Shown here: piece by piece, positions 16,461 through 20,874 of the stretch
How positions within the stretch are numbered: position 1 is the stretch's first letter
How the letters are laid out: each line of letters opens with the position of its first letter
Origin: Dipetalonema caudispina
Taxonomy: Eukaryota; Nematoda; Chromadorea; Rhabditida; Onchocercidae
DNA: 64,000 bases
Assembly: GCA_013365325.1 (NCBI GenBank)
Contig: JABVXV010000232.1
Coordinates: 37,828 to 101,827 of the forward strand
Direction of reading: 5' to 3'
The notes under the pieces: model-generated
Told to the model about the DNA's origin: nothing
Databases searched by the model: none
The model's input: only the letters and a program-made list of their open reading frames with translations
Translations under genes and position numbers: made by a program

Positions 16461-19400
16461 TTAATTGCCACCTGCTTCACCCGCTTGCTCACCACCTTCC
16501 TGATCGTCCGCGCCAGTGTCCGATGTCCACAGAGTAAGGTTGTCACGAAGGAGCTGCATGATTAAAGTGCTGTCCTTGTAGGAATCCTCGTTTAGGGTGT
16601 CCAACTCGGCAATTGCATCGTCGAATGCCTATAAACAAAATTCAATCAAATATATGTAATGGGAATAACACCTACTTACATCAGTACTGGGTTATTGTAA
16701 CGAATGTGGGCATATCTCTTGCAGTAAAACTGAAACATCCTCGCAACGAAAAGAAGTGGTTTTTTACTGAATTCAAACTAGGAGAACAAAGGAGCTCCAC
16801 ATGAATCAAATTTCCGGAGTGGATATTCTGAGTAGATGTCGATGTGGCACCAATCAGCTTATACCCACCACTGCATCTGATTGAAATTGAAAACATAAAT
16901 GAGGGAGAAATGAAGCAAAGGGAAGCAATAAACAGTAGAAGTATACGCATAACGAATGGACAATACTCCTCCAAAATTTCTATTCCCAGATTTACGGGAT
17001 GAACGCCAAAACCAACGGATGGCACCTAAGCCGCCATTAGCACTTCTTTGTGAGCACCATCCATAACGTGGCACAGAAGCCGAGCTTAATTTGTCTTCTA
17101 ATGAGTCTGGCCCAATTCAGGAGGATGAATAATAACTGATGATGCTAATCGTAACCAGTTTATGTATACATGTGTTTAATTGAATTCCCCCCGTGGCAAC
17201 ATCAATTACTTGTAAATCAATAATAAAGAAGCCCCGAGAAAGACAAAAAAGTGAAAAAAAGAATGCAGCGATGAGAAAAAGCGCATGCATTGATGTTAAC
17301 ACTCGCACACTCACAAATTCTATCCTATAATTTTTAAAAGAATCTCTGAATGCTCTGCCTTAGACTTCTGAGTTTTAATCATTACGCAACTAGAAAAAGA
17401 AATACACTACGCTACTCGTATGACATGCACAAGTAATCTAATGCCTGAAAATTGTCCTACTGATTGACCGCTATGGTGCTTAATGAACTGACAGGCAGCG
17501 CAAAATTTATTTCTATGCCCTATATTTTCCCTTAGGCTTTCAAAGTTGCGATGCCTTTCCAATTCTTCAATTCCGATCAAAACAGTTAATTTGCTGAAGC
17601 ATTCCTACTTCCTTCAGCTAATGGCAAGCGTCATGATGTTTCAAAGCTGAGTTCTGTAAGTATCTTATCTTATTGAATCGGTAACCTTAGGAAGACGATT
17701 TTTGTTAAAAATACCAGAAAACCTATTTTAAATGTTAATTTACATACCCACACATGCATTTTCGGAAGCAGAAGCGATTACTCGACGTGCTTTGAGGCCC
17801 TCAACACTTCAACTTTCCCGTACTACCCAGAACACCGGATCCCGGAGACCTACGAAAAATTATCAACCCGCAAAAGCCTGTCTAAAACCCATGTGGAACG
17901 CAAATTTAAAATTCCTAACGAAATAAGATACAGTCCCCATTTTTTTAAACTGAGAAATTGACTGCCAATGAACTGTAAACAAATACAGTATCGCTCAAGC
18001 TCCTGACCAGTTTACATCCACTTAGCTTAGCAGAAGCATTTCGGACCGTAACTATACTACAATAAAACACTTCTCCAAAAGTTTTCAGTTTACGGTCCTC
18101 AAGTTTCTGCACGCAAAAGTAATCGGAAGTCATCAGTAGTAATGTAAATGTAAGAGTAGCAAAAGAAGAGAGCCTCAGGCGGCAGCAGCAATATGTATTT
18201 GTCAAGTGTCGGCCGAATAATAAGTCGGAACATTCAATGTTTCGCCGACCGGCACTTTACAGGATCCGGCCCACCTGTTTGGCGAGTTGACATGCACGAT
18301 CGGGGCTCGATGAAATCTCGTAGAAGAAGACACTATAATTTAGAGCGAGGCCCAAACGAACTGGATGGGTAGTCGAAAGTTGTGCCTTGGCAATCTCAAG
18401 TGCCTCCGAGTAGGCTTTCTGACCCGCATCCGCCACCGCTGAAACAAACATAAACCAACCATTCGAGTGGCAATAATATAAAATGAACCCGTCTTCACGC
18501 ACCTGTTTAGCAAGTTGACAGGCCTTGTCTGGCGCATTCAGTATCTCGTAGTAGAATACCGAAAAATTGAGTGCAAGCCCAAGCCGGATCGGATGTGTGG
18601 GCTGCATTTTGTCCTTCGCGATATCGAATGCTTCCTGGTAGGACTGCTGTGACTTCTCCACTACCACTAAATAGAACAGAGAACCACCGGTCAGCAGCAA
18701 CAAACTCAAACTTCAACTCTTCTATTCCTCAGTATGGCAAAGGGCGCATATTCACAGCGAACGAAAGCCGTGTTAACGCATGACTAGCTATTTATTTCAA
18801 TAAGTGCAGTGATTCCAAACGACCCCCGCCTATCTGGGGTTACGGATTAAAAAGTTCTAATTACAACACCGCAAGAGAAAAAACTTCTTGCTTCATAAAC
18901 ACTATTCCATTCCCCGTCATTTTGACAGTTCAACTACAATTGCTGTTGGGACAGCAATGCTTGAACCAACACAGTGCGCCATATAGCACAATCAATTTGT
19001 AGGTCTTCTCTTACCGACCAATATATATGCTACGGCTCTACATACTTGCTTACAGGTCAGCTAAAGCTGACCACTGTATGCCGTCCATGTAGACAAATCT
19101 GTGCTCGTAGTATGAAGCATTTTTTGTACTTCAATCGATGTCGTCAACTACTAAAACTCGATGTAGTAAATCAAGTAATTATAAGTTATGCTTACCGTTG
19201 CGATCATCTCCACTTGCGACTTCAGCCAAATATCGGTAGTAATCACCCTTCATCTTCAAGTAGAACACCTTCGATTCAGGATTACCTGCTTTCGGAATGA
19301 GGTATTTGTCCAGAAGATTCTAAAACAAATGCTCTGTATAGATCTGAATCAACGCTCCACAAGTCAACTTTTAAATCTTCCCATGTTAATGGTAATCAAA

Positions 19401-20874
19401 AACATTTCCAAAGTGTACAAACATATGCAACATCTGAGAATTTCTGTTCAAAACTACTTCAATATTACATAGCAAAGGTTTGTTTGGATGAAGACTTACC
19501 AATACATCCTGGCAAATATCTCGCAATTCCTTCTCAACCTTTTCGCGATATTCTTTTGCCATCTGTTGCTTTTTCTCCGAACCTTCGGTCTTCTGTTCAA
19601 TCGATGATATTACCCGCCATGACGAGCGTCGTGCCCCGACTACATTCTGAAACAAATACACTGTTTTCATTCCCATTACCTTAATCGCGTTTTTTACAAA
19701 CACTCTTTCTGTAAGCATCTCAACTTCAACGGAAATGATCGATTACAATTTCTGTTTTCCTCTTCATATAATCTACTTTTATCTTTTTACTAACAAGTCA
19801 GAAAGTTCGTCCGAAGCTTCTGGAACTTCTGACATCAACAAACACGGTAGTGCTCCACATGTCTTCATGTCTACTTTCCCTGCATACCAATCAATTGACG
19901 ATGTCCTTACTGTTAGTACACAGCACAACGCTCAGCAGCTATAGGCAACGCGCAACGAGCACAACCTCTATGAGGCCTGAAGAAAGACAGCACATATGTG
20001 CGCTGAAGGGTTAGAGAGGTGCTGAGCGAATTCAACCGAGCCCACTGAGTAACTACTACGATAATCGATAAGCCATTTGATGCGTTCACCCAAACTATCC
20101 AGCAAACCGCTAAGGAGATTCCTATTATCTAATATGGCGATCTGCTTCTGTTCTCTCTCCTTCACCATTCTGTTCCTTCCTCTTTTCTTCTTTCTTCTAC
20201 ATATCGCAAGTCTACTTTAAATCCATCAATTTCTTGATTCTATTCTTGCATGAACCTTTGATAACTCCACTAATCTGACTCCATGGAATGACCAAATGTT
20301 ATTTAATACCCATGAAGGTTCACAGTGAAAAACCAAGCTTAATACTACACTTAATATCACACTGAAATATTACAACTTTATAAAATGAACTGAAAAACAC
20401 AAACAAAAAAGTAAAAAACCGGAAGAAATAGGCTAACCTTGTAAGCAACGGAGAGCAAATTACGCTCTTCATTTGAAAGTTCTGCACCCAATTCGGTGAC
20501 TCGCTTCATCGACTGAGCCATGTCGTCGTATCGCTCAGCCTAAGAAACAAACGACCGTTCACATATTCAATTAATTTACTAAACAGTACCGTAGTTCTAC
20601 CATTAACGTCATGCTAACTGATTTTAAGTTCTACCATAAACATCATACTAATTGGTTTTTTAAATGCTGCTAACACCTTTACCAGTACAATCTGGGTACT
20701 TGTATTGACAGAAGCCCATCTACCTATTTACCAACTATTACCAACTTTGCAAGTGCATAATTTTCATGGATGAAATATACTTGTAAAACATTTCCCACCA
20801 TAAATCATCACCACACAACTAACCTGTTCGGCAAGTTTGGCGCGTTGAACAAGTTCATCTTTGTTTTCTGCCAT
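16461..20874 (-). CDS. ftt-2: 14-3-3 protein with mutually exclusive exon 5
   Basis: Dimeric cytoplasmic adaptor that binds phosphoserine/phosphothreonine peptides. Exons: 20874-20824, 20539-20438, 19646-19500, 19319-19196, then either 18666-18503 (5A) or 18438-18275 (5B), then 16628-16461 (TAA stop). Either choice gives 251 residues, normal for the family (about 245-250). Visible landmarks: [76 protein letters not shown]. The phosphate-pocket residues correspond to K51, R58, R129 and Y130 here. The acidic glycine-rich C-terminus ([15 protein letters not shown]) is typical. The 5A form resembles C. elegans FTT-2 more than PAR-5, which is why I chose the symbol. The start ATG follows ACCGAG; an acceptor-like TTGTTAG lies about 35 bases upstream. 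All junctions are in phase. Confidence 0.96.
18206..18255 (-). promoter_or_regulatory. Intronic hairpin just downstream of 14-3-3 exon 5B
   Basis: Arms 18206-18216 and 18245-18255 can pair at about nine or ten of eleven positions in the transcript, counting G-U pairs, with a loop of about 28 bases. The stem is GC-rich in an otherwise AT-rich intron and starts about 20 bases after the exon 5B donor. Stems in this position can influence donor choice; a role here is inference. Confidence 0.4.
18275..18438 (-). CDS. ftt-2: 14-3-3 alternative exon 5B (divergent form)
   Basis: Also 164 bases, acceptor GTTTGTTTCAG and donor GTGGGCC, and in the same phase as 5A. It encodes the same 55-residue segment but differs in sequence: [20 protein letters not shown], then [19 protein letters not shown] and [13 protein letters not shown]. 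By my count 33 of 55 residues match 5A. The LGLALN and YEI ligand-groove residues are kept; changes cluster in the first third and in the LNAPDK to SSSPDR loop. The open reading frame, good splice sites and conserved core argue that it is functional, not a decayed copy. Confidence 0.88.
18503..18666 (-). CDS. ftt-2: 14-3-3 alternative exon 5A (conserved form)
   Basis: 164 bases, acceptor CTATTTAG and donor GTGCGTG. It encodes residues 142-196, starting [14 protein letters not shown] and ending DKACQLAKQ, with the canonical [11 protein letters not shown] and FYYEILN. The ligand-contacting Asn of LGLALN and the Glu of YYEI are present. This version is near-identical to what I recall of nematode and mammalian zeta-type proteins. 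Confidence 0.93.

Follow-up and report, generated by a model that had tools for sequence, protein, structure and literature searches.

In the 64,000-nt stretch of Dipetalonema caudispina DNA analysed here (the window), a 14-3-3 gene carries two adjacent and clearly related exons at the position of exon 5, which raises the question of how a single gene uses two versions of the same coding segment and what the choice between them would change in the protein. The gene is complete, is located on the minus strand and has AG and GT at all internal exon boundaries (Table 1). Over their full lengths, the product that includes the first of the two exons, 5A (isoform A), and the product that includes the second, 5B (isoform B), match Pfam PF00244 with 370.3 and 359.7 bits, respectively, against a cut-off of 33.2. 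Isoform B is identical over 251 of 251 residues to record P0038 from Onchocerca ochengi.

Table 1. Exons and introns of the 14-3-3 gene, with positions numbered from the first base of the window
Feature	Position	Strand	Support or remark
Exon 1 (ATG to Q17)	20824..20874	minus	ATG, GT donor; residues match nematode 14-3-3 records
Exon 2, coding	20438..20539	minus	splice boundaries; Pfam match
Exon 3, coding	19500..19646	minus	splice boundaries; Pfam match
Exon 4, coding, ends in phase 1	19196..19319	minus	splice boundaries; Pfam match
Intron 4, 529 nt, preceding 5A and 5B	18667..19195	minus	no clear complementarity to other introns
Exon 5A, residues 142-196, Ala at 186 (without JNK-type site)	18503..18666	minus	
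5A-5B intron, 64 nt, open in frame	18439..18502	minus	
Exon 5B, residues 142-196, Ser-Pro at 186-187	18275..18438	minus	
Intron 5B-6, 1646 nt	16629..18274	minus	
Exon 6, coding, including stop	16461..16628	minus	splice boundaries; Pfam match

A search of the 78-Mb, 764-contig assembly with PF00244 produced 7 matches, a lower bound given that the assembly may be incomplete. Six correspond to exons 2-6 of the window gene and the remaining one to a divergent gene on contig 477. Within the reach of the assembly and the search, no canonical 14-3-3 gene (ftt-2/zeta-type) other than the window locus was found. The second, 14-3-3-like gene (contig 477, 208371-211532) is strongly divergent, with LGLMLN replacing LGLALN, and a long acidic, Ser/Thr-rich open frame located downstream may be its C-terminal extension.

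Exons 5A and 5B are both 164 nt in length, are entered in phase 1 and left in phase 0, and encode two versions of residues 142-196 that are identical at 33 of 55 residues and at 100 of 164 nucleotides. The first-pass annotation had placed the two exons and the 64-base intron between them, with matching phases, correctly to the base, and its count of 33 shared residues was confirmed. When 5A was used as a tblastn query against the whole window, 5B was found with an E value of 1e-21 and the next match with 0.12, a gap that excludes chance resemblance between the two exons; no third copy of exon 5 was detected in the window by this search. The 64 nucleotide differences fall 17, 14 and 33 times at codon positions 1, 2 and 3, and pN (0.272) is lower than pS (0.789), indicating constraint at the protein level between the exons.

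Either exon alone yields a 14-3-3 protein of 251 aa. Inclusion of both shifts the frame, as the first-pass annotation had predicted, and the TAA it had foreseen is indeed encountered, but at nt 97-99 of 5B, 59% along the exon, and not near its end. Skipping both exons also shifts the frame, with a stop at codon 170. The arrangement found is therefore that of a tandem exon pair: adjacent homologous exons of equal length and identical phases, each with splice sites, whose joint inclusion is non-productive. Mutually exclusive exons are the best reading of 5A and 5B, and exclusive splicing in D. caudispina would be expected from this anatomy. That splicing chooses one exon, the view originally put forward for this locus, is supported by the frame logic and the splice sites, together with conservation across nematodes, records that hold 5B only and a probable 5B-only transcript, which are described in detail below.

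Helices 1-4 of 14-3-3 proteins form the dimer interface. These helices are retained in both isoforms, as are L174, N175, V178 and E182, which we take to be the residues of the 14-3-3 groove and which are unaffected by the 22 residue differences between 5A and 5B. Exon choice alters helices F-H. Retention of groove residues in both isoforms had been pointed out previously, and LGLALN and YE are kept. The phosphate contacts K51, R58, R129 and Y130, as listed in the accessible part of PMC2683825, lie outside exon 5 and are also present in both isoforms. For isoform B (P0038), the best of five AlphaFold models has nine helices and a mean pLDDT of 82 (79 to 68 for the other models). In blocks of ten residues the pLDDT of this model is 89-97 over residues 131-190, with 90-97 over 141-190, and 87 for 191-200; it falls from 74 to 52 across 201-230 and is <50 from residue 227. 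The 50 best PDB matches listed by Foldseek for the model are all 14-3-3 proteins, or complexes or fusions containing one, and the 14-3-3 matches are mostly beta and zeta with TMq values of 0.80-0.86. The 5B isoform is thus one that is predicted to fold as a 14-3-3 protein.

The most informative difference between 5A and 5B is the serine at residue 186, which the first-pass annotation had missed. Residue numbers are those of human zeta plus 2, as derived from the alignment span, and residue 186 aligns with the JNK site Ser184 of human zeta. Nematode copies were counted over 24 two-copy and 18 single-copy rows, which were picked by hand and include many close relatives that do not represent independent events; the single-copy rows were assigned to 5B by similarity. 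In the rows counted, residue 186 is Ala in 24 of 24 copies of 5A and Ser, followed by Pro187, in 42 of 42 copies of 5B. Residue 176 separates the copies just as cleanly, with F (24/24) versus Y (42/42), and two further positions do so almost completely, with Y (24/24) versus F (41/42) at residue 180 and K (23/24) versus R (42/42) at residue 189. Several records were kept out of these counts, namely P0047, P0098, P0203, P0024, the 5A-like P0078 of Mesorhabditis spiculigera and the enoplean records P0081, P0083 and P0104. The 5B-like copy of P0024 has Thr-Pro at the JNK position, P0078 has Ala-Pro at 186-187 and R at 189, and the three enoplean records, with one copy seen in each, have Ser-Pro.

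In mammals, Bax is released from 14-3-3 zeta and sigma when JNK phosphorylates the position of zeta Ser184 (PMC8455551), and a review reports that the effects of Ser184 phosphorylation depend on the partner (PMC12459269). Phosphorylation of the worm Ser186 by JNK is suggested by its position and its Ser-Pro motif, and exon choice may therefore switch a JNK-responsive site on or off. The reading preferred here, to which a probability of roughly 0.88 is assigned, is that 5A and 5B arose by tandem duplication of a 164-nt exon 5, that splicing picks exactly one of them, and that the choice switches residue 186. In this scheme, an mRNA that includes both exons or neither would be frameshifted. In a double-exon mRNA, 65 nt would separate the stop from the last junction downstream of it, and such an mRNA would be expected to undergo nonsense-mediated decay, so that frame breakage and decay would together remove splicing mistakes. 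Use of 5A would place Ala at residue 186 and preclude phosphorylation there, use of 5B would place Ser-Pro at the position of zeta Ser184, and the choice between them would set the ratio of JNK-resistant to JNK-responsive forms in a common pool of 14-3-3 dimers.

Exon 5B was recognisable in at least 42 nematode records, 24 with both segments and 18 with a 5B copy alone, when the best 120 of 250 matches to the 5B protein sequence were considered. The search for a second exon 5 in other nematodes, envisaged at first pass, was thus successful at the protein level; most of the records with 5B are gene predictions, and protein records cannot display stop codons. The 5B protein sequence is identical (55/55) in Dirofilaria immitis, Acanthocheilonema viteae, Setaria digitata, Loa loa, Onchocerca ochengi, O. 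flexuosa and Brugia pahangi. Among the matches listed, identity is 91% in Ascaris and Parascaris and ∼75-86% over the part covered in several oxyurids, strongylids, Strongyloides and Panagrellus, and the lower values of some fused records may reflect matching to their 5A copy. Many of the 24 two-segment records are over-long gene models, and the exon pair explains why many nematode and arthropod entries of ∼280-400 aa, which look like chimeric gene models, hold the segment twice. The pair is genuine, and among nematodes it is both ancient and common.

The 5A copies of Brugia and Wuchereria (P0007, P0008, P0010 and P0011) have diverged to 44/55 identity, whereas most other nematode 5A copies listed have 53-55/55; 5B in the same Brugia and Wuchereria records is still 53-55/55.

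Isoforms with 5B are already in the databases under generic names. O. ochengi P0038, Dirofilaria P0037 and Loa P0036 were deposited as '14-3-3 zeta' or '14-3-3-like protein 2', and among the other records with only 5B are Necator P0049 ('isoform 2') and Parelaphostrongylus P0063 ('variant 2'). Record P0047 is an intronless frame of 251 aa in a 1510-bp contig, with 5B as its sole exon 5. Outside exon 5 it is identical to Acrobeloides P0033 at 196 of 196 residues (141/141 before the exon and 55/55 at the C-terminus). Because introns are missing, P0047 is probably a 5B-only transcript of an Acrobeloides-type worm, though it could be a retrocopy. The converse form is represented in Ancylostoma caninum, where the cloned cDNA has no JNK site at residue 186 (PMC2683825). 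Primer R2 printed in the same paper complements, in our own reading, RLGLALNF, which has the 5A letter at residue 176, and the two observations identify the cDNA as the 5A form. Both exons are present in the A. caninum gene model P0029. The evidence for one-exon transcripts thus comes from other species: an Acrobeloides-type worm for the 5B form, as a probable transcript, and A. caninum for the 5A form, as a cloned cDNA.

In insects, mutually exclusive exons of 14-3-3 zeta and the competing RNA structures associated with them are already well known (PMC6071210, PMC4174434 and PMC3923563, in their accessible portions). The first-pass annotation had noted that the exclusive exons of Drosophila 14-3-3 zeta occupy the corresponding part of the gene; the Drosophila record P0183 and other arthropod rows do align over the same 55 residues as 5A and 5B. 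Arthropod-side protein searches were represented by the best 120 of 7971 and the best 120 of 7987 matches, and 89 rows, many again from close relatives, were counted. P0180, P0195, P0203, P0204 and P0207 were left out by name, and P0121 (three copies), P0205 and P0206 (one copy detected) were excluded automatically. At the JNK position, Ser-Pro is present in 88 of 89 arthropod 5′ copies and in 77 of 89 3′ copies, whereas the nematode copies are split between Ala and Ser. The 12 exceptions among the 3′ copies are all 10 of the named chelicerate rows (ticks, mites, a spider and a pseudoscorpion), one ostracod and one other row. To judge from these sequences, nematodes and chelicerates split the JNK position between the two copies in opposite directions. 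Rows from Elysia, Pinctada and Acipenser that also appeared to hold two copies were set aside, as larger blocks and not exon 5 alone are repeated in them.

The ends of the arthropod copies were read at the protein level, from the unspliced frames of 29 short-contig rows that are arthropod-like by sequence except for the nematode-like P0203. The codon of a copy's first residue begins with G in 39 of 39 cases, in line with a phase-1 acceptor, and the residue after the exon end is Val in 57 of 58, in line with a phase-0 GT donor. The arthropod duplicate is apparently the same exon, with the same intron positions and phases. This agreement in exon-end phases, together with the same 5′-to-3′ order in both phyla and a common polarity at position 189, where 5′ copies have mostly K and 3′ copies mostly R, argues for one duplication that, with exclusive splicing, predates the split between nematodes and arthropods. 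Insects, crustaceans, chelicerates and many nematodes would have retained the pair and the line to Caenorhabditis would have lost it, a history that we consider possible at slightly less than even odds. In a tree of 65 chosen rows, it is compatible with a grouping of the 3′ copies of both phyla (p-AU 0.399) and with a grouping of nematode 5A with the arthropod 5′ copies (p-AU 0.11), neither of which was rejected. However, the tree rests on 54 columns, and a narrow clade of 5B and the arthropod 3′ copies alone was rejected (p 0.030). Neither a single clade of all nematode-side rows (p-AU 0.319) nor one of all arthropod copies (p-AU 0.212) was rejected either, as would be the case if the same ancestral exon had been duplicated independently in nematodes and arthropods. 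Reuse of this kind is possible for an exon flanked by introns of phase 1 and phase 0, and independent duplication is a credible account with the balance tipped a little against it. The shared order and K/R polarity would then need coincidence, and a clade of 5A and 5B from the named Rhabditida and Plectus alone was rejected (p 0.0069), since enoplean and further rows fall together with the 5B side (97/93). The two narrow tests (p 0.0069 and p 0.030) exclude enoplean and other rows and are not read as answers, and the trees cannot tell one duplication from two.

The mechanism described in flies involves competing RNA pairings with a docking site in the downstream intron (PMC6071210, accessible in part). 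Pairing between introns was examined here with RNAduplex for six pairs drawn from intron 4, the 64-nt intron and intron 5B-6, with 60 shuffles each. The z values were -0.72 to +1.82, and no intron pair of the six went beyond its shuffles in the manner of a fly-type docking site with competing selectors, in what is a weak test, as a single sequence was used and long duplexes dominate. Local folding of five stretches gave z values of -1.29 at the 5B donor, -0.97 after the 5B donor, +1.26 at the 5A donor and +0.82 at the 5A acceptor; the hairpin predicted to contain the 5B donor is no stronger than chance. Both the 5A and the 5B donor begin with GTG; of 10 positions compared with U1, 7 match in 5A and 6 in 5B, against 6-8 in the other donors, so that neither is clearly weak. 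Rfam gave 2 matches, both far under their gathering scores. A dedicated mechanism for exclusivity was thus not found by the duplex, fold, Rfam and donor comparisons. Steric exclusion by a short spacer was rejected as a general rule, as the spacers in nematode-like contigs range from ∼25 nt (P0024) to 142 nt (P0203).

One of the five folding attempts, in intron 4 (window positions 19040-19140), revealed a hairpin with z -2.35, equalled by 3 of 200 shuffles, and no Rfam match was obtained at this hairpin. The 5A-5B spacer of ∼25 nt in P0024, counted by eye, is apparently too short to splice; an automated reading gave 28 nt because the second exon of P0024 is one residue longer.

Nematodes splice introns as short as 64 nt. 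The length of the 64-nt intron is the same in Dirofilaria, Setaria and two Brugia species, as implied by their gene models, and its conceptual peptide is strongly conserved among filarial gene models, being identical at 21 of 21 positions between the window and B. malayi, between which 5A itself differs at 11 of 55. This suggests that the intron is under constraint, possibly as a splicing element; the comparison with other species was at the protein level. The intron contains no in-frame stop and can be read through from 5A, retention may occur and would give a product of 327 aa, and it is crossed by the gene models of Dirofilaria (P0001, annotated as a 327-aa protein), Setaria, B. malayi and B. 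pahangi, but that the 5A-intron-5B block is read as one longer exon, or that 5B is a decaying or unused duplicate, is very improbable, given that 5B is constrained at the protein level relative to 5A, is identical in seven filarial species, keeps its AG and GT ends and occurs alone in several records, that a stop-free stretch of 21 codons has a chance of 0.27, and that in other species the way in which the two copies are joined is ad hoc and varies from one gene model to the next. Mutually exclusive use of 5A and 5B remains the preferred reading. In intron 5B-6, positions 17805-17746 of the minus strand read as a 20-residue peptide that by eye is close to 20 residues of the Setaria model P0003, and this segment is a possible conserved intronic element.

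14-3-3 proteins are abundant hubs, and nematode FTT-2 controls DAF-16/FOXO and hence larval arrest and reactivation, a role that has been proposed in parasites too. If kinase-resistant and kinase-responsive hubs are supplied by one gene, work with a single cDNA, such as the 5A form of the hookworm, would have tested half of the system. In the hookworm study the missing JNK site was taken as support for FTT-2 orthology, and the site is described as absent from Ce-FTT-2 and conserved in PAR-5 (PMC2683825, available portions). A single canonical gene in this worm against two in C. elegans, as the first-pass annotation had it, agrees with both the PF00244 search of the assembly and that source. 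In Haemonchus, Hc-ftt-2 and Hc-par-5 were described as two genes with single transcripts, both from Locus_4342 (PMC4741068, seen in part), and their common locus suggests that Haemonchus par-5 may be the 5B isoform. The accessible text of PMC6332619 states that par-5 was not detected in Toxocara canis or Ascaris suum, which is expected if one gene does both jobs. There were no Caenorhabditis rows among the best 120 of 250 matches to 5B.

The literature searched, which consisted mostly of papers outside subscription, yielded no account of such an exclusive pair in nematodes. What is new is the Ala/Ser split at the JNK position between 5A and 5B, mirrored in the C. elegans paralogues. It offers a specific and testable example in which a splice switch would take the place of gene duplication. 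A broader picture, which is tentative and as a whole rather more likely to be wrong than right, is that splice isoforms and gene copies are interchangeable in nematodes around a single phosphosite. Many species would choose between 5A and 5B in a single gene, Caenorhabditis would have lost 5B with par-5 carrying the JNK site, 'par-5' of parasites may be 5B isoforms, and the pair may date to the ecdysozoan ancestor.

The D. caudispina gene can be compared with two known systems. Like Drosophila 14-3-3 zeta, it is a zeta-type gene in which the same exon is repeated in tandem, but Drosophila has three mutually exclusive exons and D. caudispina two copies. Like ftt-2 and par-5 of C. elegans (PMC2683825, in the part available), it specifies two 14-3-3 forms, one without and one with the JNK site at residue 186. 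In C. elegans these forms are encoded by separate genes, whereas in D. caudispina they are encoded by alternative exons of one gene.
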